A DNA stretch of 64,000 bases. Origin: an uncultured bacterium. GTDB taxonomy: Bacteria > Nitrospirota > Thermodesulfovibrionia > Thermodesulfovibrionales > Dissulfurispiraceae. The stretch spans positions 1 through 64,000 of the forward strand of contig CALEDV010000063.1 in NCBI GenBank assembly GCA_937949555.1. Reading direction: 5' to 3'. Made by a program: the position numbers and the translations under genes. A model generated the notes under the pieces. The model had not been told where the DNA came from and ran no database searches. It saw only the letters and a list, made by a program, of their open reading frames with translations. Below are positions 12,088-56,573 of the stretch, one piece after another. Numbering within the stretch: the first letter of the stretch is position 1; each line of letters opens with the position of its first letter.

Positions 12088-15000
12088 ATGAATCTGATTG
12101 ATATATTCAATAGAAGGCTTAGACTGTGTTGTGCCCTTTTGGCAATATCTGCCCTTATCTTGCCCCTATTGTTCTTCATTATAATAAATAGTGCCTCAAG
12201 TGGTCATGGCATAGAACTGGATACAAGTCAATGGGCCCTTTTTGGGTCTCTTTATTTAATCTGCCACCTATTAGCTCTCTATCTAATCTGCCGCTGGATA
12301 GAGAGGGCAACAGCCAATCTAATCAAAAAAAATATACAGTCCCTGCAAGACAGGGTGACCAGAGATAGGGATGAGGAACTAAAATCTCAGCTCTCCTTTT
12401 TGGAGACCCTTATGGACACCATATCAAGCCCCATTTTTTACAAAGACAAAGACCTGATATACAGGGGGTGTAACAGGGCCTTTGAGGACTTTTTAGGTCT
12501 CAAGAAGGGGCAGATCCTTGGCAAGACTGTCTTTGACATCGCCCCTTTGGAGCTTGCGAGGATTTACCATGAGGCAGATAGTGCATTGCTTAACGGTGGC
12601 ACAGCGCAAAGGTATGAGGCAAAGGTGGTCTATGGCGATGGATCCACCCATGATGTGATATTTTACAAGTCTGTATATAGGGACAACGAAGGCAGGCCTG
12701 CTGGCATTATAGGTGTAATGCTGGACATTACCGAGAGAAAAAGGATGGAAGAGACCATTGCTGCCCAGGAGGCAATGTACAAAAAGATCTTTGACCAAAG
12801 TCCCCTTGGCAAGGCAATTGTGGATATCAAGACCTATAGGTTTTGCAAAGTCAACGAAGGCCTCTGTAAGATGCTTGGTTACACAAAAGAGGAACTCTTG
12901 AATCTATCTATTAATGAGGTCACCCATCCTGATGAGATAAGTATCACACCATCACAGATAAACAAGCTGCTTTTAGAAGGGCTTTCTTATGTTTCCTATG
13001 AGAAGAGATACATCAAAAAGTACGGAACCTTTATATGGGCAAGGGTTCATACCTCTTTGATTAAAGACCCTTATGAGCCTATAACCTACGCCCTTGGCGT
13101 GATAGAGGATATCACCCTTCAGAAAAGCTCGCAGGAAATGGCAAAAAGGAATGAGGAGTTGATGATGAGCCTCATCAATAAGAGCATCTTTGCAATTCTG
13201 GTTGTCAACCCAAAGGGCATCATACTCTTTGCTAACATTATGGCAGAGAGAATATTTATGAAATCTATTGATGAACTCATCGGCAGCCCCTTTGGGTATC
13301 CCATAGAAGCTTCAGAAGAAGCTAAGGAGATTGAGATACTTAGGAAAGACCATTCTGTAGTCTTGGCGAAGGTCTCTGTTACTGATTTTAAGTGGCGAGA
13401 GATGAAGGTTTCTCTTGTGTTTATAAATGACATAACAGAGGAAAAGGAGGCCACTGAAAACATCCGTCTCTTTAGAGAAGCCTTAAATAGGGCAGGAGAC
13501 AGCATCTTGATAGTGAACCCGATGAACATGCAAATTATAGACACAAACGAGACGGCATGCAAAGTGCACGGATATAGCAGAGAGGAGATGCTTTCTATGA
13601 ATTTAAATAATATCCATCCACAATTAGGGCCTGTCCAGTTATGGAAACACTTTGAGGCAGTAATTGAGAGGCAGGAAGTTGTCCTTATTGAGACCGTAAG
13701 CCTTAAAAAAGATGGCAGGGAGTTTCCTGTTGAGATATTCATGAGTTCCCTGATATTTGAAAAAAGACCAATTATAGTGTCTGTGATAAGGGACATTACC
13801 GAGCGCAATAGGATGCACCAAGAACTCATCAAGGCAAAGGAACAGGCCCTTGAGGCCTCGAGGCTCAAGTCAGAATTTGTTGCCAACATGAGCCATGAGA
13901 TAAGGACCCCCCTTAACGGCATAATTGGTATGGTCGATCTCCTCTTGCAGACAAACACCGATGAGAATATTAAAGACATGCTAAACACCCTAAAGGACTC
14001 TTCTAATGTGCTAATGGGCATCGTCAATGATATTCTCGATTTCTCGAAGATAGAGGCAGGCAAACTCCCAGTGGACCACACCCCCTTTAACCCCCTGGAG
14101 CTTGTGGAGAGTGTCGCAGACATTGTCTCCCCAAAGGCCTATGAAAAGGGACTTATGCTTGCAACCTATGTGGACAAAGGGGTGCCCACAAGCCTCTTGG
14201 GCGCCCCAATTAGATTAAAGCAGATACTGCTAAACCTACTTAACAATGCAGTGAAATTTACAGACAGTGGATATGTGACCTTACAGGTAAGCCCTGATAC
14301 AAGGGTTGATGAATTCCTTAAGTCCCTTGATATGACATCCTTCTGTTTTAAGATTACTGACACAGGCATAGGGATGGACGAAAAGACCCAATCAAGGTTG
14401 TTTGAGCCCTTTGTGCAGGCCGATGGCTCCTTTGCCCGTCAACATGCTGGCACAGGGCTGGGATTATACATCTCTAAGCGACTCATCGAACTCTTGGGGG
14501 GCGATATATACTGTGAGTCAAAAGAGGGTGTTGGCACCACATTTACCTGCACGATCCCTTTTACTATGCCCCAGGAGGTAGTCAATTGGGAACTGCCTCC
14601 CATGCTCCAAGAGAGGGATGTTAAGATAGCCCTTGTCTCTAACAGAGATTCTGAGGCAGAGGCAATAAGGAGATATTTAGATGATTACCACATCAAATAC
14701 AACAGCTTTATCTGCTGTAGTGAGGCCATAGAGGCTATAAATAAGGCTTTTGCTCAATGGGGTGAGGCCTTTGATATTGTTATCGTCAATGTAGATCACC
14801 AATGCGGGAATAAATGTAAGTTTTTACAAAAAAGCCAGAGACTCCCTGCCTTGGGCAATACCAAATATATCCTTGTCAGTTATGAAGATGGCAAGTCATC
14901 TATACCTGTTCACCTCTCAGACTTCAATGGGTTTATCAGACGGCCTGTCAAGAAGGGGCATCTGTTTTTTGTGATTGACGAGGTGTTGGCTGGCATACAA

Positions 15001-15459
15001 GAAAATAAAGATGCCCTTCAGCCTGAGGGTGCATACGACCATACAGAAGACACCACAATAGCAGCCCCACCTTCTCAAACCTTTAAGGAGGGGAGTCCCA
15101 TATTGCTTGTAGAAGACAACCTCATCAACCAGAAGGTTGCCCTAATGCAGCTAAAAAAACTCGGTTACACTGCAGATGTTGCAAACAATGGGGTTGAGGC
15201 CCTAAGGGCCCTTGAATCAAAGTCCTACAGATTAGTGCTTATGGACTGCCAGATGCCTGATTTGGATGGCTTTGAGACCACCAAAAGGATCAGGATAAAA
15301 GAGACCCTCACAGGAAAACGAGTACCAATCATAGCCATGACTGCCAATGCCTTAGAAGGCGACAAGGACAGATGTATCGAGTCTGGGATGGATGATTACA
15401 TAAGCAAACCTGTAAACATAGAATTGCTTAAGGAAAAAATACAAGGTTGGTTAAGATAA
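12088..15459 (+). CDS. Multi-PAS hybrid sensor histidine kinase
   Basis: This is a 1123-residue membrane-anchored sensor. Two hydrophobic helices (about 15-37 and 48-66) are followed by roughly four PAS domains (about 100-580), a HisKA dimerisation domain with phospho-acceptor H603 in SHEIRTPLNG, and an ATPase domain with DTGIGMD and GTGLGLYIS. A receiver-like region that looks degenerate (about 845-965) precedes a full C-terminal receiver with D1053 in MDCQMPDLDG. It should sense an unknown signal, autophosphorylate and relay phosphate through its receiver. A GGAGAG ribosome site precedes the ATG. The receiver-NuoE gene follows. Confidence 0.9.
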   Translation: MNLIDIFNRRLRLCCALLAISALILPLLFFIIINSASSGHGIELDTSQWALFGSLYLICHLLALYLICRWIERATANLIKKNIQSLQDRVTRDRDEELKSQLSFLETLMDTISSPIFYKDKDLIYRGCNRAFEDFLGLKKGQILGKTVFDIAPLELARIYHEADSALLNGGTAQRYEAKVVYGDGSTHDVIFYKSVYRDNEGRPAGIIGVMLDITERKRMEETIAAQEAMYKKIFDQSPLGKAIVDIKTYRFCKVNEGLCKMLGYTKEELLNLSINEVTHPDEISITPSQINKLLLEGLSYVSYEKRYIKKYGTFIWARVHTSLIKDPYEPITYALGVIEDITLQKSSQEMAKRNEELMMSLINKSIFAILVVNPKGIILFANIMAERIFMKSIDELIGSPFGYPIEASEEAKEIEILRKDHSVVLAKVSVTDFKWREMKVSLVFINDITEEKEATENIRLFREALNRAGDSILIVNPMNMQIIDTNETACKVHGYSREEMLSMNLNNIHPQLGPVQLWKHFEAVIERQEVVLIETVSLKKDGREFPVEIFMSSLIFEKRPIIVSVIRDITERNRMHQELIKAKEQALEASRLKSEFVANMSHEIRTPLNGIIGMVDLLLQTNTDENIKDMLNTLKDSSNVLMGIVNDILDFSKIEAGKLPVDHTPFNPLELVESVADIVSPKAYEKGLMLATYVDKGVPTSLLGAPIRLKQILLNLLNNAVKFTDSGYVTLQVSPDTRVDEFLKSLDMTSFCFKITDTGIGMDEKTQSRLFEPFVQADGSFARQHAGTGLGLYISKRLIELLGGDIYCESKEGVGTTFTCTIPFTMPQEVVNWELPPMLQERDVKIALVSNRDSEAEAIRRYLDDYHIKYNSFICCSEAIEAINKAFAQWGEAFDIVIVNVDHQCGNKCKFLQKSQRLPALGNTKYILVSYEDGKSSIPVHLSDFNGFIRRPVKKGHLFFVIDEVLAGIQENKDALQPEGAYDHTEDTTIAAPPSQTFKEGSPILLVEDNLINQKVALMQLKKLGYTADVANNGVEALRALESKSYRLVLMDCQMPDLDGFETTKRIRIKETLTGKRVPIIAMTANALEGDKDRCIESGMDDYISKPVNIELLKEKIQGWLR

Positions 15460-15590
15460 TAGTAGTCTTATATCTACCTGCCTCTATGTTTTAGGTTAGA
15501 TGCATTTTTTATTGCCTTTGGGTGTATAATATCCTTCAATTTCAATACCTGTTTAGAGATCGAGTTTCATCTGTAAGGAGGAAAAATAAT

Positions 15591-16451
15591 ATGGCAGGCA
15601 AGGTCCTTGTGCTTGACGATGACCTGATAATGCTTAAAAGCTGCGAAAAGATTCTCAACCATCAAGGATACGAGGTCTCAACTGCTTCCTTCGGAAAAGA
15701 GGCGTTGAGTATGCTTGAGAAGGCGCCCTTTGACCTTGTAGTGACTGATATAGTAATGCCCGAGATGGACGGCATAGAGTTTATAAAAAGGGCTCGGCAA
15801 ATCAACCCTGAATTACAAGTCATAGTTATAACTGGACATCCCTCACAGGATACGCTGCGGGAGGCCCTGAGCCTGAAGATAATAGACTATATTCCTAAAC
15901 CCTTTTCTCCTTCGCTTTTCATCGAGGTAGTTGAAAAGGGACTGGAGATAAAGAGAAAGGGCATTGAATTAAAACCCATGATAGATACGGACTTTGACTT
16001 GGCAAAAAACAGAATAGATGAGGTGATAAAAAGGCATAGACACAAGAGAGGCAGCCTCATTCCTGTGCTTCAAGAATCTCAGGATATTGTCGGATATTTA
16101 CCCCCTGCCCTTATAAGATATGTGGCTAAAAAGATGCGTCTGTCTGTGAGCGAGGTGCATGGGGTAGTCTCTTTTTATTCCTTCTTTAGCATGAAGCCCA
16201 AGGGCAAACACAACATTAAGGTGTGTCTTGGCACAGCCTGCTATGTAAAGGGCTCTGAGGAGATAGTCAACAAATACAAATCAAGTCTTGGCATAGAGAT
16301 GGGGGGGATCACCGAAGACAGGATGTATTCCCTTGAGAGCGTTAGATGTCTCGGTGCCTGTGGACTTGCCCCTGTGGTAGTGATTGATAAGGACACCCAT
16401 GGGTCAGTGACCCCGATGAATGCCTTGGAACTGCTGAAGCAGTATAATTAA
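15591..16451 (+). CDS. Response-regulator receiver fused to a NuoE-like [2Fe-2S] domain
   Basis: This 286-residue fusion has an N-terminal receiver domain (about 1-120) with phospho-acceptor D53 in VTDIVMPEMDG and a KPF lysine motif. The C-terminal part (about 145-286) is the thioredoxin-like [2Fe-2S] domain of NuoE/HndA, with all four cluster cysteines (C212, C217, C253, C257). No NuoF or hydrogenase gene is beside it. The start at 15591 has a perfect GGAGG ribosome site; an upstream in-frame start at 15522 does not. It may pair with the hybrid kinase just before it. Function unknown. Confidence 0.88.
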   Translation: MAGKVLVLDDDLIMLKSCEKILNHQGYEVSTASFGKEALSMLEKAPFDLVVTDIVMPEMDGIEFIKRARQINPELQVIVITGHPSQDTLREALSLKIIDYIPKPFSPSLFIEVVEKGLEIKRKGIELKPMIDTDFDLAKNRIDEVIKRHRHKRGSLIPVLQESQDIVGYLPPALIRYVAKKMRLSVSEVHGVVSFYSFFSMKPKGKHNIKVCLGTACYVKGSEEIVNKYKSSLGIEMGGITEDRMYSLESVRCLGACGLAPVVVIDKDTHGSVTPMNALELLKQYN

Positions 16452-43234: not shown

Positions 43235-44590
43235 CTATTTTAAGATAGATTGCCCTTTGATGCCCAACTTTTGTAATTTTCTAAATAAAGTTGTTCTATG
43301 GATGCCAAGAGACCTTGCAGTATTGCTGAGGTTGTTGTCGTGTTTTTTGAGTGCCTGTAGTAGTGCATTTGCCTCTATTAAGTTTTTGAATGTCCTGTAG
43401 TCAGTAATTGTATCAGTAAAATCCCTCTTGCCTTTAAGTTTATCAGGCAGGTGATTTATTGCGATATTGCCTGCCTTGCATAGTATGAAGCAGTTTTCAA
43501 TCACATTTTCAAGCTCCCTGATATTGCCTGGCCAGTCATAGGCAAATAATAGAGAAAGCGCCTCTGGCTCAATACCTTGAATGGATCTATTGTGGGTTAT
43601 GTTGAATTTACCAATGAATTTCTCTACAAGCAAGGGTATGTCTTCTTTTCTGTTTCTCAAGGGAGGAAGCTCAACAGGCACTACATTTAGCCTGTAGTAG
43701 AGGTCTTCACGAAACTCTCCCTTTTTAATCATTTCAGTTAGATATCTTGATGTGGCTGATATGACCCTTACATCAGCAATCTCAGATTTCACAGCGCCTA
43801 AGGGTTCGTATGTGCGTTCTTGCAACACACGAAGTAATTTTACCTGTAGCGCTGGGCTAATATCTCCAATCTCATCAAGGAATAGTGTCCCTCCTCCAGC
43901 TAAGGCAAAGCGACCAGGCTTGTCTTTATTAGCGCCGGTAAATGCGCCTGCCTTGTATCCAAAGAGTTCTGATTCAAGGAGTGAGTCAGGTAGGGCAGCG
44001 CAGTTTACTGCGATAAAGGATTCCTTAGCTCTTGGGCTCATTGAGTGAATAGTCTTCGCCAAAAGTTCCTTGCCTGTACCTGTCTCTCCAAAGATTAATA
44101 CTGTGCTTGGACTTTCAGCAATTGCGGGCAATACATCAAAGAGCCTATGCATAAAGGGATTTCTACTCGCTATATCGCCAAAGCGAATAATGCCCATCAC
44201 TTGACCTCTTAGGGTCTCTATCTCAGAGATGTCCCTAAAGGTCTCTACGGCGCCAATCAGTGAATTATTAGCGTCAAACAGCTGGGCGGTTGTGAGGTTA
44301 ATAGGCACTCGGTCTCCCCTCACATTGATGATGAAGGCGGTCTTACCAATTATCGGCTTGCCCGTTTGAAGGGTCTCCTTTAAGGCACAATTATCATTGC
44401 ACAGACTTGATCGAAAGACCTCCGAGCATCGCTGATTAATTGCATTTTGCTTTGATATGCCTGTGATAATCTCAGCAGCACGGTTGAAAAAGGTAATCCT
44501 CCAGTTTAAATCCACCGTAAAGACACCTTCGGATATGCTCTCAAGGATTGCCTCAAAGAATGTCTTGTCAGACAGATGGAGATGGGTCAT
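43235..44590 (-). CDS. Sigma-54 activator with Cys-containing PAS sensor domain
   Basis: This 451-residue regulator has an N-terminal PAS domain (about 10-125) that holds a cysteine group (C55, C64, C68). A sigma-54 AAA+ domain with GETGTGKE and the GAFTGA loop, and a Fis-type helix-turn-helix near the end (NNLSNTARSLGIHRTTLFRKL) follow. There is no receiver, so it senses its signal directly; the cysteines could bind metal, an iron-sulfur cluster or react to redox change. It follows the DtxR gene and precedes a sigma-54 promoter, so it likely drives the two small genes downstream. Confidence 0.88.
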   Translation of the reverse strand: MTHLHLSDKTFFEAILESISEGVFTVDLNWRITFFNRAAEIITGISKQNAINQRCSEVFRSSLCNDNCALKETLQTGKPIIGKTAFIINVRGDRVPINLTTAQLFDANNSLIGAVETFRDISEIETLRGQVMGIIRFGDIASRNPFMHRLFDVLPAIAESPSTVLIFGETGTGKELLAKTIHSMSPRAKESFIAVNCAALPDSLLESELFGYKAGAFTGANKDKPGRFALAGGGTLFLDEIGDISPALQVKLLRVLQERTYEPLGAVKSEIADVRVISATSRYLTEMIKKGEFREDLYYRLNVVPVELPPLRNRKEDIPLLVEKFIGKFNITHNRSIQGIEPEALSLLFAYDWPGNIRELENVIENCFILCKAGNIAINHLPDKLKGKRDFTDTITDYRTFKNLIEANALLQALKKHDNNLSNTARSLGIHRTTLFRKLQKLGIKGQSILK

Positions 44591-44635: not shown

Positions 44636-45376
44636 CTATTTCCCCATAATCTTACACCAAAGACTTTTCTTTTGCTTTGTAAGAGAGGGCTCTGTCTTAT
44701 GTGCATCAGACTTACTTCCCTGTATCCGCCAAACAGTGATGTTTTTGGCAATATCCTCATCAATTGCCACATTAGCCCCCTCACATTCAACCACATAGGC
44801 AGGGTAGGTCTGATGAAGCTTGATAATTGCCCCTGGTCGCACCTGTAAGCCATTTAACTTGTGCATCTCCTCATCATTTCCACTGTTTATATAGGCAATA
44901 CGACCTGACTGACCAATCCTCATATCAGATAGATGCATCACAGAGCTCTCAACGGTCTTTACAGCCTTTAAACAGCAATCACCAGGTGGGATGGGTAGTC
45001 CATGGGGACATTCTTTGGGATGTCCAAGCATGGTGCAGATACTGTTTATCAACTCCTCAGTAAGGGTATGCTCAAACTCACAGGCACCCTTTTCGAAGTC
45101 CTTGCTCATTCCCATTGCATCAAAGAGGAGCCTTTCGGCTAACCTGTGTGCCCTTACTATCCTCCTTGCAAGCGCCTCGCCCTTTTCAGTGAAGGATACC
45201 TCTTTTTTGTCCTCTAAAAGGGTTATCAGCTCTTCGTTTATGAGCCTTTGAAGTATCTCCTCCTTATAATCATCGCCAAAGGCATCAACAAGCTTTGCCT
45301 TTGACATATTGTTGTTTTCTTTCATATACCACAGGGCTTCAAGGTATTCATCCATATCAACTTTATCTTTCATCAT
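44636..45376 (-). CDS. DtxR/MntR-type metal regulator with FeoA-like C-terminal domain
   Basis: This 246-residue protein has a winged-helix DNA-binding domain (about 1-65) and the DtxR dimerisation/metal-site region (about 70-145, with ARRIVRAHRLAERLL and FEHTLTEELINSIC...GHPKECPHG). A FeoA/SH3-like domain (about 155-230) follows. Such regulators repress iron- or manganese-uptake genes when the metal is plentiful. It lies 66 bases downstream of feoB on the same strand, so it probably controls iron import in this locus. Confidence 0.88.
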   Translation of the reverse strand: MMKDKVDMDEYLEALWYMKENNNMSKAKLVDAFGDDYKEEILQRLINEELITLLEDKKEVSFTEKGEALARRIVRAHRLAERLLFDAMGMSKDFEKGACEFEHTLTEELINSICTMLGHPKECPHGLPIPPGDCCLKAVKTVESSVMHLSDMRIGQSGRIAYINSGNDEEMHKLNGLQVRPGAIIKLHQTYPAYVVECEGANVAIDEDIAKNITVWRIQGSKSDAHKTEPSLTKQKKSLWCKIMGK

Positions 45377-45442: not shown

Positions 45443-47374
45443 CTAAAACACAAGCCTCAAGCACCAGTTTGCCACTGTCATTACAATAACTGAACTGATA
45501 GTGATAACTACGACTATTACAATTGCACTCCTTAGGCCGAGCATCCTTATGATGCTTCCTACATTTGCAACACAAGGGAAAAACATGGTAGTAAGCGTTA
45601 CGGCTACTATACTCTGCACATAGTCAAGCATATTTGCCTCAATCATTTTTGCAATTATTGCAACTGATGCCTCCCTTCTTGCAAGCAGGACAATAAGGGC
45701 ATCAACTATGTCAACGGGTAGTCCCAATGCGCCCTTTACCATTGGTTCAAGAAAGACCTTGAGGGCATCAAGGATGCCTGTCTTGTCAAGGGTAAATAAT
45801 ACAAGTGATGCCAAGATAAAAACCGGGAATGCCTCTTTGAGAAATTCAAGCAGTCGGTAATAGGTCTTTTTAGCGATGTTTTTTATATTGGGCATCCTGA
45901 TAGGAGGCAACATCTGAATGAATACCTGAGTTCTGTCTTCTTTTATTATCCTATTTAATATCAAGCCTGTGATTATCTCTACTAACACCAATATTGCAAA
46001 GGAGATGAAAAAGGCTGAAATACCAATCTTGCCGAGCAGACTCATACTTAGTCCAATCTGAGGTGCACAGGGTATTGCAAAGGCAATGAGAAAGATGGCA
46101 ATGTATCGCTCTTTCTTTGAGGCAAGGGTTTTTGTCGTAAGCGTTGCCATGGTCTTGCATCCAAAGCCAAGCACCATCGGCAGTATGGTTGCCCCACTAA
46201 GACCAATCTTGCTAAAAATCCTCTTTGACAGTACCGTTAGATTAGGTATATATCCCACATCCTCAAGGATATTATAAAGGATGTAAAAGACTGATAGTAT
46301 TGGCAACACTGTTAGTATTGCCCCAGCTACACCCATAGAAAGCACACCGTAATCCCCGATCAATAGATCATTCCAGAACCTGTCAATAACAACTGTCTTG
46401 ATGTAATCCTCCACAGGCTTCCAAGCCAGGTCCTCAAGAAACCCAGTCAATGCATCTGCCACTTCAACAACCAAAAAAAATACAGCTATGATTATGCCAA
46501 TCAGTATTGGAAAGCCTGTTATAGGCGTCCTACAATATTTGGCTAAGTTCTCTGAAAATGACTGCGGCGCAGAGGCCTGCTTTTTTACAATCTCATCATA
46601 CACACTGTCCACCCATCTGCTATAGGTATAGCTAAGCAGTTTAGCTGGATTCCACTGAAATCTATTTTTTAAATCGGCAATCGTATCCTTTATGTCCTGC
46701 AGAGTCTTTGCACCCGCAATCTTTTCAATATGCTCTTCAATATACTGGTCATTTAATAGTGTAAAAATAGCATTTGCCCGCCTATGACGCATACTATCGG
46801 GGAAAAAGGAAATTATTGAGCTAAGAGCAGACTCCATCACATCTCCGAATATAACTGGGGATTTTGGCAATCGCGCAGTTTCAATTGCCTGCTTAAGACG
46901 ATTTGTCCCCACTCCTTTGATTGCAATGGACTCAACCACAGGCACACCCACAATATAGGAAAGCTTTTTAGAGTCAATCCAGATGCCCTTCCTTGCGGTC
47001 TCATCAAGGGCATTAAGCACAAGCACTAAGGGGATAGAAAGTTGTGTGAGTTCAGCAGTCAAAGAGAGCGACTGCTTTAGGTGATTAGCATCAACACATT
47101 GCACGATAATATCCACATCACCAGAGAGAATCTTTTCTCTGACCATTGATGCCTCTTCAGATTGGATATGCAATGAGTAAATGCCGGGCGTGTCAATTAT
47201 GTTGTAACAATAACCCTCAACAGTGCAAAAAGCCCCCTTGATGTTGATTGTAGAAAGTGGATAGTTTGCAACTAATGTATATTCACCAGTTAGGTTTGAA
47301 AATATCTGGCTCTTGCCACAGTTTGGCAGTCCAAGGATGAGGACATTTTTGTCTGTCTTATCGGTTTGTTTCAT
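45443..47374 (-). CDS. feoB: Ferrous iron transporter FeoB
   Basis: This 643-residue membrane GTPase has G1 GLPNCGKS (15-22), G3 DTPG and G4 NALDE in the N-terminal G domain. A helical guanine-dissociation-inhibitor region (to about 270) and a membrane part with two Gate repeats follow. It imports Fe(II) across the inner membrane. FeoB genes are found in magnetosome gene clusters, and here it sits in one unbroken run with mam genes 13 kb upstream. No separate feoA gene is seen; the FeoA-like domain is attached to the next gene's regulator. Confidence 0.93.
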   Translation of the reverse strand: MKQTDKTDKNVLILGLPNCGKSQIFSNLTGEYTLVANYPLSTINIKGAFCTVEGYCYNIIDTPGIYSLHIQSEEASMVREKILSGDVDIIVQCVDANHLKQSLSLTAELTQLSIPLVLVLNALDETARKGIWIDSKKLSYIVGVPVVESIAIKGVGTNRLKQAIETARLPKSPVIFGDVMESALSSIISFFPDSMRHRRANAIFTLLNDQYIEEHIEKIAGAKTLQDIKDTIADLKNRFQWNPAKLLSYTYSRWVDSVYDEIVKKQASAPQSFSENLAKYCRTPITGFPILIGIIIAVFFLVVEVADALTGFLEDLAWKPVEDYIKTVVIDRFWNDLLIGDYGVLSMGVAGAILTVLPILSVFYILYNILEDVGYIPNLTVLSKRIFSKIGLSGATILPMVLGFGCKTMATLTTKTLASKKERYIAIFLIAFAIPCAPQIGLSMSLLGKIGISAFFISFAILVLVEIITGLILNRIIKEDRTQVFIQMLPPIRMPNIKNIAKKTYYRLLEFLKEAFPVFILASLVLFTLDKTGILDALKVFLEPMVKGALGLPVDIVDALIVLLARREASVAIIAKMIEANMLDYVQSIVAVTLTTMFFPCVANVGSIIRMLGLRSAIVIVVVITISSVIVMTVANWCLRLVF

Positions 47375-47422: not shown

Positions 47423-48340
47423 TTACTCTGCAGTATCAAGCTGTTCGAAGACATCCTCTCTTAAATCAAGCAGATCATTAATATCAATGGACAAGGCTGA
47501 CATGGGTTGACGATGTAGCAGCGCCCACTCCTTAGTATCTTTGTTGTTAGATCTTGTCGATGATGACTCATAGCACTCCACAATGTATTCGCTTATGATC
47601 AGTAGAGAAATCAACTGCTCTACAGTGCTATTTTTTTGTATCTCTAAGTTTATGTAGTGATGATAGCATATAGCATCACATATTGTTTCATTCAAATGCC
47701 AGGACCTCGCTACCATATAACCTGCTATACAGTGATTTGTGCTATACCTTTGCTCTTCTAATCCAATAATTGATTTGTAATTACCCTTAAGGGCATCAAT
47801 CGGGACGGTCCCCATCGCCAATCCAGCAATTTCTTCATAATCTTTGTATTTCTTCACAAAGAGAGGCACTGCACAGTCATGAAAGAGTCCTGCCATATAG
47901 GCCATTTCGATAAGTGGTGATTTGATCTTCTTTGCAATGAACCTTGCAGTATGAGCAACCATTGAGGAGTGTTTGAGAAACTTGTCATTAAAAGCCTTAT
48001 TTGTGCTGTAGTTATCAACAGATTCACGAAGCGCGGCGGTTACAATGATGTTGTAAAAGTTAGTTATTCCAAGCACCAATAAAGCCTGCTCAATGGTGTC
48101 TGATTTCCTTGTTGAGAAAAATGGAGAGTTTGCTATCTTAAGAACCTTGGCAGAGAGCGCAACATCCTTTTCAACTAATTCTGCAATCACCTTAAAGTCA
48201 ATCTTTATCTTATTCATCTCATGGTTTATATCAAGGACTATTTTAGGATTAGATGGGATACCAATATTTTTGATGAGCTCTTCAGCCTTTTTAATGCTGT
48301 TGTCATCTTTGGTCCTGTTTAATTTCTGAATGTCTATCAT
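47423..48340 (-). CDS. HDOD-domain protein 1
   Basis: This 305-residue protein consists mainly of an HDOD domain (about 20-240): LVEKDVALSAKVLKIANSPFF near the start, then AGLFHDCAVPLF and a histidine-containing YHHY. HDOD domains resemble HD phosphohydrolases but usually lack full catalytic sites, and often act in signalling. It is a paralogue of the next upstream gene, with the same length and the same N-terminal GIP(S/P)xPxxxL layout, so the pair arose by duplication. Confidence 0.86.
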   Translation of the reverse strand: MIDIQKLNRTKDDNSIKKAEELIKNIGIPSNPKIVLDINHEMNKIKIDFKVIAELVEKDVALSAKVLKIANSPFFSTRKSDTIEQALLVLGITNFYNIIVTAALRESVDNYSTNKAFNDKFLKHSSMVAHTARFIAKKIKSPLIEMAYMAGLFHDCAVPLFVKKYKDYEEIAGLAMGTVPIDALKGNYKSIIGLEEQRYSTNHCIAGYMVARSWHLNETICDAICYHHYINLEIQKNSTVEQLISLLIISEYIVECYESSSTRSNNKDTKEWALLHRQPMSALSIDINDLLDLREDVFEQLDTAE

Positions 48341-48382
48341 CTTCTTTCCCCCAAGTGTCTTTTAGCCCCTAATATTTATCAG

Positions 48383-49303
48383 CTACATCCCTACTATGTC
48401 TCTTATATCCTCACTTATGTCTTCAATCTGCTCCTCTGATAGGTCTAAGTCTGCCTTGAGAATATTAATATCAACACTTGCAAAAACCTGTTGATTGTCA
48501 ATTGCATCATCCTTGTTGTCGGATAAATTTGTTTTGTATGTGTTGATTGTCTTATATGCCTTTATTGCCTTGTAAGTTGAGATTGTCTCTTCATAAACAA
48601 TCTTCTCAGCAAGTCTTAAGCAGTTTACAAAGAGCTTGACCTTATCGTTTTTTAAATACCTCAGTTCAGTGCTGTGATGCCACATTATCGAGTCATAGAT
48701 TTCTTGTGGTAATTGCCAGGATTTGGCAAGCACATATCCCACTACACAATGATTGGTGTTGAGTAACTTTTCCTCAACATTTACAGCATCAGTGCTTGGT
48801 CCTAGGGCATAGTCAACTACTTGTTGATAATCCTTGAATCTCTTGAGCATTATTGGCACTGAGCAGTCGTGAAACAACCCAGCAAGATATGCATCTTCCA
48901 TAAGCCTTTTATTAATTTCCTTCATCACAAGGCTACAAGCCTTAGCTATCTGAAGAGAGTGTCTCCAAAAGGTCTCAAAGACCTTGGGGTCTATCCCTTT
49001 AAATGAAAGTGTATCCCTTAGGGCCGATGCGACTATGAGATTATAAAAATTCTTAGTGCCAAGCAGATTAAGTGCTTGGTTAACAGAGGTTATCTTTCCG
49101 AGACCCACTAAAGGTGAGCTTGCAAGCTTCAGTGTAGTAGCGCTGATTCCCACATCTTGACTGACTAATTCAGCAATACGAAAAAGATTAGGACTCGCAC
49201 TTTCTATCTCTTTTTTTATCTTTAAAATAACCTCAGGCTGTGGGGGAATCCCCACGCTCTTTATTGTTTCTTCGGCGGTCTTTATTGCTTTACCAACGGG
49301 CAT
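48383..49303 (-). CDS. HDOD-domain protein 2
   Basis: This 306-residue paralogue of HDOD protein 1 carries ELVSQDVGISATTLKLASSPLVG, AGLFHDCSVPIMLKRFKDYQ, NTNHCVVGYVLAKSW and WHHS. The C-terminal tail differs and contains a threonine/lysine-rich YKAIKAYKTINTYKT stretch. The ribosome site AAGGAGG is strong. It lies after the stand-alone CZB gene. HDOD proteins often work next to receiver proteins, as here. Confidence 0.86.
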   Translation of the reverse strand: MPVGKAIKTAEETIKSVGIPPQPEVILKIKKEIESASPNLFRIAELVSQDVGISATTLKLASSPLVGLGKITSVNQALNLLGTKNFYNLIVASALRDTLSFKGIDPKVFETFWRHSLQIAKACSLVMKEINKRLMEDAYLAGLFHDCSVPIMLKRFKDYQQVVDYALGPSTDAVNVEEKLLNTNHCVVGYVLAKSWQLPQEIYDSIMWHHSTELRYLKNDKVKLFVNCLRLAEKIVYEETISTYKAIKAYKTINTYKTNLSDNKDDAIDNQQVFASVDINILKADLDLSEEQIEDISEDIRDIVGM

Positions 49304-49423
49304 TGGTTACCTCCTTAGGAATAAAACCTTCAGATACATTAAAAAACTGCTAACAAAACCTCTCTGTTATCTGAAAATATCCATGCATGTTAATCCCTAC
49401 TTTATGATTAATTAGAGAGAGCA

Positions 49424-49945
49424 TTACCCTTTACCCCTCAGATCATCCTTCAGAATATCCAAAGATACCTTTGTGATGCTCACCGTTGATGATTGATTTG
49501 GTTCGTTGCCGCCAAAGAGCTTTTTAAAGGGTTTAAAGAGTTTATTGGTAAGTCCTTGCGCTTGCTGTGGCTCTTTGACAGTTTGATAGTTTCTAAGCAT
49601 TTTATACTCAAGCATAGTCAAGAGATAGATAATCTCCTTGCTCATCCTTTGTGCCTCTTCAAAATCAATCTGTGCCTGTGCGTCTTGACGAGGGCTGAGC
49701 TTAGGACTATTGTGCCATCTGACAACCTTCTCGGCTGCAATGTGAAACTCCTTGTGATACCTTTCAAGAAATTCAATCTCTGGTATGTCACTGTATTCCT
49801 CCATTGCTCCACTATACAGCCATACACCCAAATCACATTCATTAAAAGACTTGACATTTAAAATCAAATCCCTCTTTTGCAAAGCCCTTTCAAGCTGATA
49901 AACCCATTCCACATGGGTAAGTCGAGCAATCATAATATCAAGCAT
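49424..49945 (-). CDS. Stand-alone CZB (chemoreceptor zinc-binding) domain protein
   Basis: This 173-residue soluble protein has the CZB pattern of one cysteine and three histidines: H11 (THVEW), C37 (CDLGVWL), H64 and H68 (YHKEFH). CZB domains bind zinc tightly in chemoreceptors and in DgcZ, and respond to zinc or oxidants such as HOCl. Here there is no chemoreceptor or cyclase attached, and the tail (about 125-173) is lysine-rich and probably disordered. The start is supported by GGAGG. It overlaps no other gene and lies directly after the receiver-GAF gene. Confidence 0.8.
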   Translation of the reverse strand: MLDIMIARLTHVEWVYQLERALQKRDLILNVKSFNECDLGVWLYSGAMEEYSDIPEIEFLERYHKEFHIAAEKVVRWHNSPKLSPRQDAQAQIDFEEAQRMSKEIIYLLTMLEYKMLRNYQTVKEPQQAQGLTNKLFKPFKKLFGGNEPNQSSTVSITKVSLDILKDDLRGKG

Positions 49946-49947
49946 TC

Positions 49948-50793
49948 CTAAGTCCTCCTTATTGCGTTTGCAATTACATCTGCAAAGGCATTGAGGATAT
50001 TTTCATCTGCCTCGTCTCTTTGGTGCCCTTCACGAACATATACATTTATAACCCCAAGTAATTTATCCTTTGCAACTATAGGCATACAGTAGTGTCCATG
50101 AGGCAAACCATCTTGCTGTCGTGTATGTTCTTTGTCAATGGCACTACTAAATACAACCCTCTTTGTCTCTGCTGCCTTACCACAGATACAACTACCCACA
50201 GGCACTGTCTTACATGGACCATCTCCAACCTGTGCCTTACAGACAAGCTGATTTGTTGACTCATCGTAAAGATAGATTGCAGCCTTTGTCTGAAGAAATA
50301 ACCTTGGGATCGAAAGGATCATCTGAAGGCTCTTTTGGAGCTTATCTTCAAGGCTAAGGTCCTCAAGAAAGATCTTGAGCATCCTCATCAAGACCTTGAG
50401 CTTCATCTCCATTTTGTGTTTGTAAAGTGCCATGCCAATGGTAATGAGCAAGTCTCGTTGAGTGAAAGGTTTGACAATATAGCCCTGAGGTTCAGTTATT
50501 TTTGCCCTGTGAAGGGTCATCAAATCAGTCTGTGCAGTGAGATAGACTATCGGTATGTCAAAGGACTTGCTTATCTTATCGGCTGCCTCTATGCCGTCCA
50601 TCTTGCCCTCAAGCTGGATGTCCATAAGTATTAAATCTGGTGAATACTCCTCTGCATACTTAATTGCCTCCTCTCCAGTAGCGGCAATCTCACATACCTC
50701 ATAGCCAATCTTCTGAAGCTTAGCCTCAATATCACGGGCCGTTATTATCTCGTCTTCAACGATGAGTATTGTTATCCTCCCTGCAATTCCCAT
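49948..50793 (-). CDS. Receiver-GAF response regulator
   Basis: This 281-residue protein has a complete receiver domain (about 7-120; D58 in LILMDIQ and the lysine in GYIVKPF). A linker and a C-terminal GAF domain (about 140-280) follow, with cysteines in the region QVGDGPCKTVPVGSCICGKAAE. There is no DNA-binding or enzymatic output. The GAF domain could bind a small molecule or metal. The histidine kinase encoded 130 bases upstream is the likely phosphate donor. Confidence 0.87.
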   Translation of the reverse strand: MGIAGRITILIVEDEIITARDIEAKLQKIGYEVCEIAATGEEAIKYAEEYSPDLILMDIQLEGKMDGIEAADKISKSFDIPIVYLTAQTDLMTLHRAKITEPQGYIVKPFTQRDLLITIGMALYKHKMEMKLKVLMRMLKIFLEDLSLEDKLQKSLQMILSIPRLFLQTKAAIYLYDESTNQLVCKAQVGDGPCKTVPVGSCICGKAAETKRVVFSSAIDKEHTRQQDGLPHGHYCMPIVAKDKLLGVINVYVREGHQRDEADENILNAFADVIANAIRRT

Positions 50794-50923
50794 AAGTACC
50801 TCCTTGTGATTTATAAAGTAATGTCAAAGGTTTTTAGGCTAAAAAACTTAAAAAACTTCCTCCGTAAAAATATCTGTTTTAAATAGGCTTACCTCACAAT
50901 ATAAGTGGATCAGTGAATGACCC

Positions 50924-52093
50924 CTATCCTCCAAATACAATCCTAATCCTTGTCCCCTTACTCCTGTCTATCTCCATAGTCCCTCTTATCTTTCTTTTAA
51001 CAAGGTCATTTATTAACTGCCAACCTAAGGACCTACTCTTTCTCAACTCCTCCTCTGGTGGCAGTCCTTTGCCATTGTCTGCGACAATTAGCTCATATTT
51101 ACCTTCTTTATTTTTATCAAAAGCCAGATATATCTCTCCTTTGGGTACATCATCAAAGGCATACTTCACCGCATTTGAGACGAGTTCGCAGACAATAAGC
51201 CCACAGGGAATCATAATGTCCACAGATAGTTTCTCTACCCTTACATCAATCTTGATATCTACTGTCTTGTATGTCCTCAATTGATAAGACTGCATGATGT
51301 CTGAAAGGAGCTCTTTGAGGTATTCATCGACCTGCAAAGTCGAGATGTCAGAGGACTGATAAAGCTTTTCATGCACCAACGCCATTGATCTGATTCTATT
51401 TAAAGTGTCTTTGAAGATGTTAATAATCTTTTTGTCTTCAAGGGTATTCATCTGCAGCGCAAGGAGGCTGCTGATGATTTGCATGTTGTTTTTAACCCTA
51501 TGATGCACCTCTTTTAGTAAGGTCTCTTTATCCTTCAGTGCCTCCTCAAGGGTGAGGCTCTTTTGGGTCATATCAAAGGCCTTTTTCTTCTCCTCAATTA
51601 TTAGCTGTGCCCTACGGTCAATCTCCTTTTGTAATTGCTCGTTATAGAGCATTAGGTGCTCTGTGAGCTCCGCCTGCTCTTTGAGCATCCTTTCATAGGC
51701 TGCCTTTAGACTTTCTAATTCTTGTTTTGTCTCAATAAGCTCCAACTGTTGTTTTATTACTAAAAAAAGCTGTGTCATTGTAAAGGGTGTAACAATATAA
51801 GTAGTTGCACCTGCCTTAAAAGAACTCGCCCTTTGTCCACTGCCATAGGGACCTATCACAATCTTAGGAGTGTTGTTATATGTATCAGAAAGAGACTTTA
51901 AAACATCTACTGCCTTCATATCAGGAAGGTCATATTGAATGATAATTATCTCATATTTAGATGAATTAGCCATTGTAATGGCATCTTCACCCTTTGTTGC
52001 CCTATCAAACAAAAGGGACATATCTGTTAGGACCGCCTCAATTTGCCGTAATATGTCTTGGTCATTAGATGCTATTAGTGCTTTTGCAGTCAA
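50924..52093 (-). CDS. Histidine kinase (HisKA_2) with inactive N-terminal receiver
   Basis: This is a 389-residue cytoplasmic kinase. The N-terminal receiver-like domain (about 1-120) has lost the key residues: the phospho-acceptor Asp is Q53, the conserved Thr/Ser is G81 and the Lys is T102. A coiled coil (about 120-190) leads to a HisKA_2 domain with LKEVHHRVKNN (H197/H198) and an ATPase domain (ELVSNAVKYAF, DNGKGLP). The start is a TTG preceded by GGAGG. It should donate phosphate to the receiver-GAF protein. No membrane segment is seen. Confidence 0.87.
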   Translation of the reverse strand: MTAKALIASNDQDILRQIEAVLTDMSLLFDRATKGEDAITMANSSKYEIIIIQYDLPDMKAVDVLKSLSDTYNNTPKIVIGPYGSGQRASSFKAGATTYIVTPFTMTQLFLVIKQQLELIETKQELESLKAAYERMLKEQAELTEHLMLYNEQLQKEIDRRAQLIIEEKKKAFDMTQKSLTLEEALKDKETLLKEVHHRVKNNMQIISSLLALQMNTLEDKKIINIFKDTLNRIRSMALVHEKLYQSSDISTLQVDEYLKELLSDIMQSYQLRTYKTVDIKIDVRVEKLSVDIMIPCGLIVCELVSNAVKYAFDDVPKGEIYLAFDKNKEGKYELIVADNGKGLPPEEELRKSRSLGWQLINDLVKRKIRGTMEIDRSKGTRIRIVFGG

Positions 52094-52254: not shown

Positions 52255-52644
52255 TCACAACACCTTTATATGACCAATGATAATCAGTCCAATCCAAATC
52301 CAAAAAAGTCCCTGTTGTGTATGAAGCATCCTGATATATCTACTATCCTCAGGCAATAACCTATAGTGCATAAGGACACCTTCCAGGGTTAGAAGGATTG
52401 TAACTACAAAGCTTATTCTTAATAGTGCTGTCTTTTCATCGGCATAGTGTCCGTGAATGAGCAAGAAAAATAGGGCAATGAGGTTAAAGGTAATATGAAT
52501 TTTTAAATACCGAGCAAAAAATTGGGCAATATCCTTTGACCAGCCAATAATGTGTCTTGCAATCAACTTGGCTGGATAATAGGCATTGGCAATAATAAAG
52601 AATATACCCGACAGATAACCCGCTGTATTGCTTAATTGCTCCAA
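52255..52644 (-). CDS. Small four-helix membrane protein with paired histidines
   Basis: This 129-residue protein has about four hydrophobic helices. Histidines fall at helix positions suited to haem b binding: KIHITFNLIALFFLLIHGHY, then VLMHYRLL and MLHTQQGLFWIW...IIGH. It may be a cytochrome b561- or ferric-reductase-like protein, but I do not recognise a family. The start is a TTG that overlaps the preceding gene's end within a few bases, so it is translationally linked to the coiled-coil gene. Its place inside the magnetosome run suggests a magnetosome-membrane role. Confidence 0.65.
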   Translation of the reverse strand: MEQLSNTAGYLSGIFFIIANAYYPAKLIARHIIGWSKDIAQFFARYLKIHITFNLIALFFLLIHGHYADEKTALLRISFVVTILLTLEGVLMHYRLLPEDSRYIRMLHTQQGLFWIWIGLIIIGHIKVL

Positions 52645-52647
52645 TCC

Positions 52648-53238
52648 TTAGTCCCTCATCTTGTTTGCAAACTTAATAGAAAGATCCATCTTGTTTTCTG
52701 CCTCTTTGAAGACCCTTGACAGTTGCCTCAAGACCATGTCGTACTGCTTAATCTCTGGCGCCTTTTGGTGTCTTTGCTCCGATAATATATTTACCCCTGT
52801 CTCCATATCCTTGAGTTTTTTGATGTAAACTGCCTTTTCATTGACAATGCTTAAAAGTTCATCCTCAAGATGGGAACGCATATTGAGGAAGTTTTTTATG
52901 TTCTTTGTGGCTGTCTTCATACTAACCTGACACTTGTTGATCTCATCAATGAGTTGCTCTTTGGTGTCTTCAAGGGCTTCCAAGGTTGACGGATACCTCT
53001 GAATCTTTTGTTTTGTGCTATCAATCTCCCTATTTAATGCCTCTGCAACAATGCAAGCGCCGTCGATCTCCGATTTGATTGAATCAAGCTTGTTTGTTAG
53101 CTTTGCGTTTTCACTAATAAGTTGATGCTTTTTTGCCCTTAGTTCTTTTAATTCATTAACGAGGTCCTTTATCTCCTGCGACTTTATTCTCTTTCCACGA
53201 GGCAAAAAGACCCCTGGTATGCTAAATACGCCTTCCAT
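52648..53238 (-). CDS. Coiled-coil protein, 196 residues
   Basis: The product starts MEGVFSIPGVFLPRGKR and is then nearly all coiled coil (about 20-190). The start at 53238 is chosen because the earlier in-frame ATGGAGGTG of the open frame is itself the ribosome site. I recognise no family; it resembles in type the Mad/Man coiled-coil proteins of magnetosome clusters. It is coupled to the small four-helix membrane protein. Confidence 0.72.
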   Translation of the reverse strand: MEGVFSIPGVFLPRGKRIKSQEIKDLVNELKELRAKKHQLISENAKLTNKLDSIKSEIDGACIVAEALNREIDSTKQKIQRYPSTLEALEDTKEQLIDEINKCQVSMKTATKNIKNFLNMRSHLEDELLSIVNEKAVYIKKLKDMETGVNILSEQRHQKAPEIKQYDMVLRQLSRVFKEAENKMDLSIKFANKMRD

Positions 53239-53311
53239 CTTACCAATCACCTCCATAATTGAAGTTTAATTTACTTCCCATCCAAAGGGGTTAGTCCTTT
53301 AAACTAACTCG

Positions 53312-53575
53312 CTATTTTTTCAACCCTCTTAAAAAACCCACTGCACCACCGGCAAAGCTAAAGGTCTTAAGGACTACAAGGGCAGGCAGGGTAACCTCTG
53401 CTGCAGCAATTGCAACTACTGCACCAATGCCTGTTACAGCACCAACTCCCACACCAACAGCGGTCTTGGCAGCAATGATACCTGTCCTATGGATGAGTCT
53501 GTTAATCCTTTGTCCTATACTTGTTTTTTCATCAGTCTTTTCTGCCTTTTCAAGTTGTTGTATTTGTTCGCTCAT
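53312..53575 (-). CDS. Small protein with a glycine/alanine-rich hydrophobic core
   Basis: This protein of about 87 residues has a charged N terminus (1-30). A long hydrophobic glycine/alanine-rich stretch follows (about 32-80: AAKTAVGVGVGAVTGIGAVV, then AAAEVTLPALVVL), and the end is basic (FLRGLKK). This fits one or two membrane helices with small residues that pack tightly, a general style seen in several small magnetosome-membrane proteins such as MamC or MamD. No homology to those is claimed. The second ATG (53575) has GAGGTG at the right distance. Confidence 0.7.
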   Translation of the reverse strand: MSEQIQQLEKAEKTDEKTSIGQRINRLIHRTGIIAAKTAVGVGVGAVTGIGAVVAIAAAEVTLPALVVLKTFSFAGGAVGFLRGLKK

Positions 53576-53592
53576 AATACACACCTCTTTTT

Positions 53593-54312
53593 TTAAATGC
53601 TAAGATTATAGTTTTGAAGTTTCTTTTTGTCTTCTAAACACTGTTTAAGTTGTTGATTTTGCCTTTCATATTTTTCTATAAGGCTCACTCTTTCACCCCT
53701 TAAGGTTGCAATCTCTTTTGAGTAAGTATTGAGTTTGTCAATGGCGGAATTGAGTTTGAGCTCTATATAGTGAATATCCCTCTGTAGATCAGCCTTTTCA
53801 TCCTCTAATTCCTTAATTCTGTCATTGAGCTCCTTTGTCTCTAATTTATGTTTGTCCATATAGTTCTTCATAGAGCGTAATGTGGCTTGTGCCTCACTTC
53901 TTTCTTCAATGAGTCTTTCAATTTCTGCCTTTAGTTCTCGCCTTGTGGGCAACTCTTCATTGATGAGATCAAGTCTTTGTTGAAGTTCACGGTTTTCTGC
54001 TTTTAGCCTTGTTATAACCTCTTTTGATGCCTCAAGGTCTTTCTCAAGGGCTTTATTGATTGTGATGACACTATTAAGCTGTGCATATATATTTTGCATG
54101 CTTGTAAATAAGTCCTTGATGGTCTTGCCAATGTCCATTGCCCCAGTTTCATTTTTAAGGTGCTCAAGGACCTTGAGTTCTGGCATATCTCGGACAACCA
54201 AAACCCCCTCAGATATGAAAGAGCAATCTTCTTTTTGCTCTGTGGAAGCCTCGTTGCATTCCTCTTGTGGTTCTATAATGTCCTCTTTTATCTCTTGTTG
54301 CTCCTTGTTCAT
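53593..54312 (-). CDS. Coiled-coil protein, 239 residues
   Basis: The N-terminal 35 residues are acidic (EEDIIEPQEE-like). The rest (about 60-235) is continuous coiled coil without cysteines or enzymatic motifs. The ATG is preceded by AAGGAG and lies two bases after the upstream coiled-coil gene, so the two are coupled. The likely role is structural, for example scaffolding or positioning; this is inference from context. Confidence 0.75.
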   Translation of the reverse strand: MNKEQQEIKEDIIEPQEECNEASTEQKEDCSFISEGVLVVRDMPELKVLEHLKNETGAMDIGKTIKDLFTSMQNIYAQLNSVITINKALEKDLEASKEVITRLKAENRELQQRLDLINEELPTRRELKAEIERLIEERSEAQATLRSMKNYMDKHKLETKELNDRIKELEDEKADLQRDIHYIELKLNSAIDKLNTYSKEIATLRGERVSLIEKYERQNQQLKQCLEDKKKLQNYNLSI

Positions 54313-54314
54313 GT

Positions 54315-54869
54315 TTACTCCTTCGTATAAAATTTGATCTTTAAGTCCTTTTCGATGCTTTTCATGTTCTCATAGAGACTATTGAAGGCCTTAGAGGACC
54401 ACGACAATTTCTCCTGCAATGCATCGATACCATTAAATTCCTCATTTGCTGACTTTTCAGTCACCTTAATCTTCGCCTTTAGAGACTCTATCTCTCCTTT
54501 GATGAAGTCAATCTTGAGTATTGTATTAGTCAAATTAGCTAAATTATCACCGCACTCCTGAGACATCTTGTTGTATTCAGTGATAATCTTCCCCTTTTCT
54601 GTCTCAAGCAGGCTTATCTCGGTGTTGAGATTGCTCTCTTCAGTTGTAAAGGTAATGAGTCTTTTTTTGAGGTCATGGAGCCTTGAGGAGAGTTCTTTTG
54701 TAATCTTATTCTTCTCAAGGAGATCGGTCTCAAGCTCCTTTATTTGACGCTCAATGTTGTAGTTCTCATTTTCAAGCCTCAGTATGTCTTCTTGTAGAGC
54801 TGCCCTATCGGCAAGAAGAGTCTCTCTGTAAGCCTCTATGTCGGTATCTTTTGACTTTTCGTCACTCAT
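54315..54869 (-). CDS. Coiled-coil protein, 184 residues
   Basis: The product is predicted coiled coil nearly throughout (about 15-175). The start MSDEKSKDTD at 54869 has AAGGAG at the right distance. The frame extends 12 codons further, but those codons lie in the terminator hairpin at 54899-54924, so the longer start is rejected. No family recognised. Confidence 0.75.
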   Translation of the reverse strand: MSDEKSKDTDIEAYRETLLADRAALQEDILRLENENYNIERQIKELETDLLEKNKITKELSSRLHDLKKRLITFTTEESNLNTEISLLETEKGKIITEYNKMSQECGDNLANLTNTILKIDFIKGEIESLKAKIKVTEKSANEEFNGIDALQEKLSWSSKAFNSLYENMKSIEKDLKIKFYTKE

Positions 54870-54898
54870 TGCTACTGTCTCCTTGTGCTTTGATGAAA

Positions 54899-54924
54899 AG
54901 GGCATGACTATGGAATCATGCCCT
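54899..54924 (-). terminator. Rho-independent terminator inside the magnetosome run
   Basis: A perfect 9-bp stem (AGGGCATGA / TCATGCCCT) is followed by TTTTCAT on the minus strand, five bases after the HEAT/coiled-coil gene. It would split the run into at least two transcripts or reduce expression of the downstream genes. Confidence 0.75.
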
Positions 54925-54929
54925 AATTA

Positions 54930-56573
54930 TTAAGCCTTCAAAAGCATTGAGATAAGCTCTGCCTTTGTGAATGACTCATCGCATTCAATGCCTTTGCTTT
55001 TACACATCGCAATCAGATCACTTTTGAGTTTTTTCTTAAGGGACTCTTCTGTCCACTCTGCATCAAAGGATTCTAAATCAGCATTAGTAGGTGTTTGAGG
55101 TTCTGATTTATCACTTTGAACTTGTTCATCTAAAGATGTAGCTGTCTCTTGCGAAGTACTTGTATCAACTTCTGTTGTGAGAGGCTCTTCTGTTGTATAA
55201 AGGGGCTGAGTAATCTCCTCTGGTGTAGTCTCTATAACATAAGAAACCCTGTCAGTTGGTTGTGTTTCTTCAACTGTTTTCTCTGTTTTCGCTTCACTAA
55301 TAGATTCATCTTGCTGTGTCATAGCTGGCTCTGGGGTCAAGACTTCACCAATCTTTGAGATCCTCTCTGACTGCCACCATTCTTTTAGTTTTTCAATTGA
55401 TTCAGTCAATGCCTTGCCCTTGAGGTTTGTGTCAAAGTCAATGCTCTCACCAGTTATTGAAACAAGGGCGTCGTAAGCCTTTTTGCGAATGTCAGTGTTA
55501 TCATCAGAGAGCACCCTCATTAGTGGCAATACAGAGGACTCGTCTTTGATATTGGCAAGGGCTGTTACTGCTGCCTTTCTAACCCCTTCATCTTTGTCTT
55601 GCAAGCATTGGATTATGCCTGGCACAGCGTCATTGATATCTTTCCAGCCAAGGAATGTGATTGCAGTGCGTCTGACCTCAGGATGCTCGTCATTGAGTGC
55701 CTCTATGAGATATGGCGCCACCTCTTCATTGGCCCCTATCTTGTAAAGACCCCTTAAGGAGCTAATTCTGCACCTGTGATTTGGGCTCTTTACATTTTCC
55801 TTACAGATACCCAACACCCTTGCATCGCCAATATTTGTGAGTGAATTAATAACCTCGGCAGTTAGATAAGGGTTGTCAAACTTGACAGCCTCTATAAGGA
55901 CATCAGAGGCAGGTGAAATACCCATTTTACCTAACTCTGCTGCTGCAAGTATCCTTACCTCCATCTCATCATCACAGAGGTCATGGGCAATCTTCTTGAA
56001 TATCTCCTTTTGGCTTTCTGAATCAAAAGCGCCTTGTTTCAAGGCATTTTCAATAGCGGATTTAATAGCCCCAATTGCTTGTTCATCGGAGACCTTTAAC
56101 TTTTTCTTTGCTGGTTTTTCCTTTTTAGCCTCTTCTGCCTTGAGCTTTTCAATCTCAGCCATTTCTGTTATCTGCTGATTTAATCTCTCAATCTCTTGCT
56201 CGTATTCCCTGACCTTTGCAATTAGCTCATTGACCTTTTCAGACTCCAACTTTTGGGCAGAGGAGCTCTCTTTGCCAATCTCATAGTAGAGCTTTTTAAT
56301 CTTGTCTTCATATTCGGCGATTTTTGCCTTAAGCTTCCCCTTTTGACCGCTGCTAACCTTTCCAAATAAACCCTTTACATCACCTAATACCTTTGGTGCG
56401 CCTGAACCAACAGCAGAGGCTGTCTTTCCGATTACATTGAATGCCTTTGAACCAACTTCTGTAACAATGTCGTAAGTCTTAACAATTGTCCTTCCACCAA
56501 AGTTCAATACCGATGCAATCCCTCCTAAAAGACCCGATGCCTTGACCGTTGATTGCACTCCTTCTTGTGACAT
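54930..56573 (-). CDS. Coiled-coil and HEAT-repeat scaffold-like protein
   Basis: This 547-residue multi-part protein has a glycine-rich, partly hydrophobic N terminus (about 1-70) that could touch membrane. A coiled coil (about 78-150) and HEAT repeats follow (about 190-400; EVRRTAITFLGW, GVRKAAVTALANI, DIRKKAYDALVSI). Then comes a threonine/glutamate-rich linker (about 410-505) and a C-terminal SAP/HeH-like helical motif (ESLKKKLKSDLIAMCKSKGI). The ribosome site GGAGG is strong. I recognise no named family. It is bracketed by a 170-base upstream gap and a terminator. Confidence 0.78.
   Translation of the reverse strand: MSQEGVQSTVKASGLLGGIASVLNFGGRTIVKTYDIVTEVGSKAFNVIGKTASAVGSGAPKVLGDVKGLFGKVSSGQKGKLKAKIAEYEDKIKKLYYEIGKESSSAQKLESEKVNELIAKVREYEQEIERLNQQITEMAEIEKLKAEEAKKEKPAKKKLKVSDEQAIGAIKSAIENALKQGAFDSESQKEIFKKIAHDLCDDEMEVRILAAAELGKMGISPASDVLIEAVKFDNPYLTAEVINSLTNIGDARVLGICKENVKSPNHRCRISSLRGLYKIGANEEVAPYLIEALNDEHPEVRRTAITFLGWKDINDAVPGIIQCLQDKDEGVRKAAVTALANIKDESSVLPLMRVLSDDNTDIRKKAYDALVSITGESIDFDTNLKGKALTESIEKLKEWWQSERISKIGEVLTPEPAMTQQDESISEAKTEKTVEETQPTDRVSYVIETTPEEITQPLYTTEEPLTTEVDTSTSQETATSLDEQVQSDKSEPQTPTNADLESFDAEWTEESLKKKLKSDLIAMCKSKGIECDESFTKAELISMLLKA

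Follow-up and report, generated by a model that had tools for sequence, protein, structure and literature searches.

Does a run of signalling genes at the edge of a magnetosome cluster constitute a dedicated module for magnetotaxis, or is it an assembly of unrelated parts? The question is raised by five genes in a window of 64,000 nucleotides (contig CALEDV010000063.1, positions 1 to 64,000) from an uncultured bacterium of the Dissulfurispiraceae (Nitrospirota), which a preliminary description had placed inside a magnetosome run and interpreted as a sensory block. The placement is correct: the window holds a true magnetosome cluster, with mamE, mamA, mamB, mamM, mamO-C and the equivalents of mad23-26 and man4-6. 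The standard man/mad cluster spans the window and the remaining contig, in an order that matches that described for Nitrospirota (PMC8353452).

A signalling and iron zone beside the cluster

The 3' part of the cluster (52648..56573, minus strand) comprises the equivalents of mad26, a small Gly-rich open reading frame, mad25, mad24 and mad23. The small frame (53312-53584), which is Gly/Ala-rich and lies between the mad25- and mad26-type genes, has a similar counterpart in genome G398. A mad2-like small membrane protein (52255..52644, minus strand) is encoded after mad26, both here and in G398 (L119), rather than in its usual position between mamB and mamA. Elsewhere in the window (12088-16451), a hybrid PAS kinase precedes a protein in which a receiver is joined to a thioredoxin-like 2Fe-2S domain.

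The five genes lie between the mad2/mad26-type genes and feoB, all on the minus strand, and their positions and domains agree with the preliminary description. They encode a soluble histidine kinase (50924..52093), a receiver-GAF protein with an intact receiver (RR-GAF; 49948..50793), a stand-alone CZB protein that consists of this domain only (49424..49945) and two HDOD proteins, HDODa (48383..49303) and the more distant HDODb (47423..48340). Beyond them, on the same strand, follow the ferrous iron transporter FeoB (45443..47374), which is mad17-type by position, a protein that combines a DtxR-type metal-binding domain with a FeoA domain (44636..45376) and a PAS-sigma54-Fis transcription activator (43235..44590). 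Thus, the statement that the block lacks a DNA-binding output holds for the five genes, but not for the genes past feoB. Relatives of the activator (62-66%) occur near CZB or mam genes in Desulfuromonadales (L203, L198 and L194). The idea that it is confined to genomes with MamE was rejected, as one relative is found in the MamE-negative genome G144.

The gaps, previously described as short, are uneven: 161 nt between the mad2-like gene and the kinase, 130 nt between the kinase and RR-GAF, 2 nt between RR-GAF and CZB, 120 nt between CZB and HDODa, 42 nt between the HDOD genes and 48 nt between HDODb and feoB. A range of 2 to 161 nt does not imply a single transcript, and promoter and terminator scans of the region remained at chance level, with no excess over shuffles. 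The closest junction is that of RR-GAF and CZB, where the CZB start codon lies 2 nt past the RR-GAF stop and a ribosome-site-like AAGGAGG is found within the 3' end of RR-GAF.

Parts with different histories

The five-gene order, which had been expected to recur elsewhere and always with mam genes, was absent from the mapped neighbourhoods of CZB, receiver-GAF and HDOD relatives and from approximately 24 magnetosome clusters of MamE-positive Nitrospirota, several of which are cut by contig ends. Parts of it do recur. G230, a magnetotactic genome of the same family, carries a PAS-HisKA_2 kinase/receiver-GAF pair and a feoB-feoA-HDODa run on its magnetosome contig, without CZB, and G083 and G326 have a lone receiver-GAF gene at the opposite cluster edge. 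The same 3' flank is occupied elsewhere by a CHASE-PAS-SpoIIE protein (G398), a HisKA_3/LuxR pair (G116) or an HDOD gene (G174 and G310). Rather than a module conserved as a unit, the five genes are a set of parts that differ in history; the proposed link with magnetotaxis is supported for single parts rather than for the block.

The kinase has a degenerate N-terminal receiver, in which the phospho-acceptor Asp is replaced by Gln and the conserved Lys by Thr, followed by a coiled region and a HisKA_2/HWE-type kinase with HATPase_c. In magnetotactic Nitrospirota, a HisKA_2 kinase is usually encoded directly upstream of the receiver-GAF gene (many loci), with N-terminal domains that differ, such as PAS in G230. 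Full-length RR-GAF relatives were detected in 13 of 20 MamE-positive and none of 376 MamE-negative Nitrospirota genomes, at a cut-off (E < 1e-70) that was set after seeing the gap to the best match in other genomes (about 2e-45); the carriers are mostly Magnetobacteriaceae. On the magnetosome contig, the gene is found in G230, G083 and G326. Five residues of the GAF part (C194, C202, H223, H234 and C236) are invariant, and this part alone has matches in many other Nitrospirota proteins.

The pair recalls PhyK/PhyR, in that an HWE/HisKA_2 kinase adjoins a protein whose receiver domain has PhyR as its best-scoring model, and the closest named model of the kinase is PhyK, at a score below cut-off. 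RR-GAF differs from PhyR in carrying a GAF domain and no sigma-factor-like domain, and both proteins fall far below the cut-offs of the named models.

Both HDOD proteins are what they had been taken to be, with domain scores of 130.6 and 152.7 bits (cut-off, 22.9), and like other HDOD proteins they have no other output. They are not a recent tandem pair: duplication was rejected by the tree, in which only HDODa falls within a magnetotactic clade, together with the cluster-linked HDOD proteins of the magnetotactic genomes G230 and G336 (support 100/99). This link to Feo and magnetosome genes sets the HDODa clade apart from other HDOD proteins. HDODa follows feoB-feoA in G230; in G336 it stands at a contig start, followed by two genes like those upstream of the mamK-type gene of G230. 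A search with HDODa against genome contigs returned no relatives. HDODb has no cluster-linked group in the tree, has relatives in MamE-negative genomes as well and appears generic.

A CZB protein confined to genomes with MamE

The window CZB protein matches the Pfam CZB model at 38.7 bits (curated cut-off, 29.4). Its 3His/1Cys zinc site (H11/C37/H64/H68) is invariant across 19 sequences, and the motif CX(L/F)GXW(Y/L), here CDLGVWL, has invariant C, L, G, W and L. After a linker, the protein ends in the tail SLDILKDDL. The pattern S-L-D-x-L-K-x-D is common to the window protein, the M. casense lineage, nDJH5bin4 and the Desulfuromonadales proteins and is missing from other Nitrospirota members of the clade; among 4,048 open reading frames of the fetched loci, it was matched by the CZB clade alone. 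A suspected resemblance between this tail and the HDODa C terminus failed in a profile search and was rejected.

The core is predicted to be a helical bundle (pLDDT about 95), which fits the CZB fold and is not diagnostic: the model aligns with the four-helix bundle of the DgcZ CZB domain (3T9O; Z 9.3, 99 aligned), other helical bundles score equally or higher, and the best rows in Foldseek and VIA-align are generic helical bundles. No solved structure was matched when the CZB alignment was used for a profile search. Because the zinc site is intact and CZB domains of other proteins sense zinc or redox state (PMC8262984, PMC13370339, PMC6715182), metal or redox sensing by this protein is plausible.

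Every one of the 18 genomes that carry the CZB clade is MamE-positive, and the clade was found in none of the 508 MamE-negative genomes sampled. Among 396 sampled Nitrospirota genomes, 20 of them MamE-positive, relatives counted at E < 1e-40 occur in 9 of 20 MamE-positive and 0 of 376 MamE-negative genomes (P = 2.8e-13), a comparison in which Magnetobacteriaceae, being all magnetotactic, do not contribute independent genomes or counts. In the order Desulfuromonadales, the clade is present in 7 of 9 MamE-positive and 0 of 132 other genomes (P = 1.9e-10), with MamE as the sole marker searched genome-wide and some of the MamE matches in this order spanning the protease part only. When 84,980 species were scanned with the CZB alignment, a pattern-based search that can miss members, 14 loci were recovered, eight in Nitrospirota and six in metagenome-assembled genomes of Desulfuromonadales/Geobacteraceae, all 14 of them in MamE-positive genomes (those of loci L153 and L156 were equated with G403 and G406 by identical coordinates). 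Close relatives of CZB and RR-GAF were thus found in MamE-positive genomes only; the outcome that would have spoken against the proposed link, a frequent occurrence in non-magnetotactic genomes, was not seen for these two key parts.

Except for G332, which belongs to another order, the carriers fall into three man-containing groups, the Dissulfurispiraceae group, the Magnetobacteriaceae and man-containing Thermodesulfobacteriota, among which transfer of the magnetosome cluster has been proposed (PMC9376291). The CZB tree is weakly rooted and so does not settle the direction of transfer.

CZB adjoins mam genes in the window, as it does in six of the seven Desulfuromonadales carriers (G408, G410, G411, G412, G413 and G516); mamM-, mamB-, mamP-, mamE/O-, mad2- or mamA-type genes lie nearby in those six. 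In the seventh (G409; MAG_21600_9_004), named as magnetotactic (PMC9376291), CZB is preceded by the gene of a PAS-LuxR regulator and lies at the end of a contig. The Desulfuromonadales genome G516 has six copies of the clade, two sets of them as tandem pairs (L194, L195, L196 and L197). In G332, where CZB lies outside the magnetosome cluster, the genes before it encode a kinase, an NtrC-type regulator and a CDF transporter; this transporter, directly before CZB (L046, 10094-11365), has a C-terminal NifX-like domain. In Magnetobacteriaceae, CZB is solitary and far from mam genes. This, and its absence from 11 of the 20 MamE-positive Nitrospirota genomes, indicates that CZB is not essential to magnetosomes.

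CZB shares with the man/mad genes its occurrence in three man-containing groups (PMC8353452, PMC9376291). It differs in that the published list (man1-mad26) does not include it, in its frequent location outside the cluster (a man/mad gene would lie within it in most carriers) and in its presence in G332 as well. From the surveyed CZB-only proteins (PMC8262984), with which it shares the 3His/1Cys site, the CX(L/F)GXW(L/Y) motif and the lack of any further domain, the clade is distinguished by its confinement to MamE-positive genomes, its conserved C-terminal tail and a mam neighbourhood in several genomes. CheO was considered as a precedent for a stand-alone CZB protein and dropped, as it reportedly lacks both a known sensory domain and a conserved cysteine (PMC9665402). 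In the literature searched, we found no paper that links HDOD or CZB with magnetosomes or that names CZB as a magnetosome gene. CZB-only proteins as such are already known; what is new here, on this evidence, is the recruitment of one of them and of a kinase/receiver pair to magnetotaxis. Two of the five parts, CZB and receiver-GAF, are on the same evidence new magnetotaxis-associated signalling genes.

Possible roles of the CZB protein

The best overall explanation, to which we give a probability of roughly one half, is that an accessory signalling and iron zone, made of parts of separate origin, has been joined to a man/mad-type cluster at its 3' end and includes a magnetotaxis-restricted CZB sensor and its circuit. 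CZB would most likely be a soluble zinc/redox switch for magnetosome iron handling or magneto-aerotaxis, possibly acting via the kinase/receiver-GAF pair. The distribution of the CZB clade, its 3His/1Cys site, its tail and the 2-nt junction with the receiver-GAF gene are shown; the complete circuit is our hypothesis. Zinc occupancy of the CZB site would report the cytosolic zinc or redox state, and the tail could relay a change of shape to a partner, the simplest candidate here being the co-translated receiver-GAF protein together with its kinase. Uptake of ferrous iron (feoB is adjacent), magnetosome building or swimming behaviour might be adjusted as a result. HDODa, which follows feoB-feoA in G230, probably serves the iron branch as a hub for interactions. 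The receiver-GAF protein cannot be a general requirement of CZB, as CZB-carrying Desulfuromonadales lack it.

A more specific proposal, which we advance tentatively, is that CZB is an unrecognized sensor associated with magnetosomes, carried from one phylum to another along with magnetosome genes, its tail coupling cytosolic zinc or redox state to magnetosome building or magneto-aerotaxis, and that in this bacterium it has been wired to a dedicated kinase/receiver-GAF pair. Alternatively, CZB may serve magneto-aerotaxis by reporting redox state to chemotaxis arrays or flagella, its association with magnetosomes reflecting shared use in swimming rather than crystal making. This would suit the roles of most characterized CZB proteins, which lie in chemotaxis or c-di-GMP turnover (PMC8262984); in addition, 13 matches to the CheW domain were counted in the genome, and the CZB genes of Magnetobacteriaceae are remote from mam genes. 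However, no chemotaxis gene was seen in the block or beside the mapped CZB genes, and those of Desulfuromonadales sit beside mamM, mamB and mamP. This possibility seems to us somewhat unlikely.

We consider it unlikelier still that unrelated signalling genes have simply accumulated at the cluster edge and that their position next to the mam genes of this bacterium carries no functional meaning. Such a pile-up would account for a gene order seen in none of the other mapped neighbourhoods, for the unlike signalling genes on the same flank elsewhere and for the generic HDODb, but not for the restriction of CZB and RR-GAF to MamE-positive genomes, nor for a CZB clade that spans two phyla and has mam neighbourhoods in Desulfuromonadales. 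Least probable is a non-signalling role in which CZB buffers zinc or iron, or serves as a metallochaperone, for the cation transporters MamM and MamB: CZB adjoins CDF transporter genes in G408 and G516 (mamM) and in G332, whereas the window CZB has signalling genes and no CDF genes as neighbours, and characterized CZB domains are sensors.

It is largely an open question how crystal building is matched to redox state and iron in magnetotactic bacteria, particularly in the deep-branching groups that lack genetics. The CZB protein, small and soluble, with a sensor site of a known type and confined to magnetosome genomes of two phyla, offers a concrete and testable candidate.
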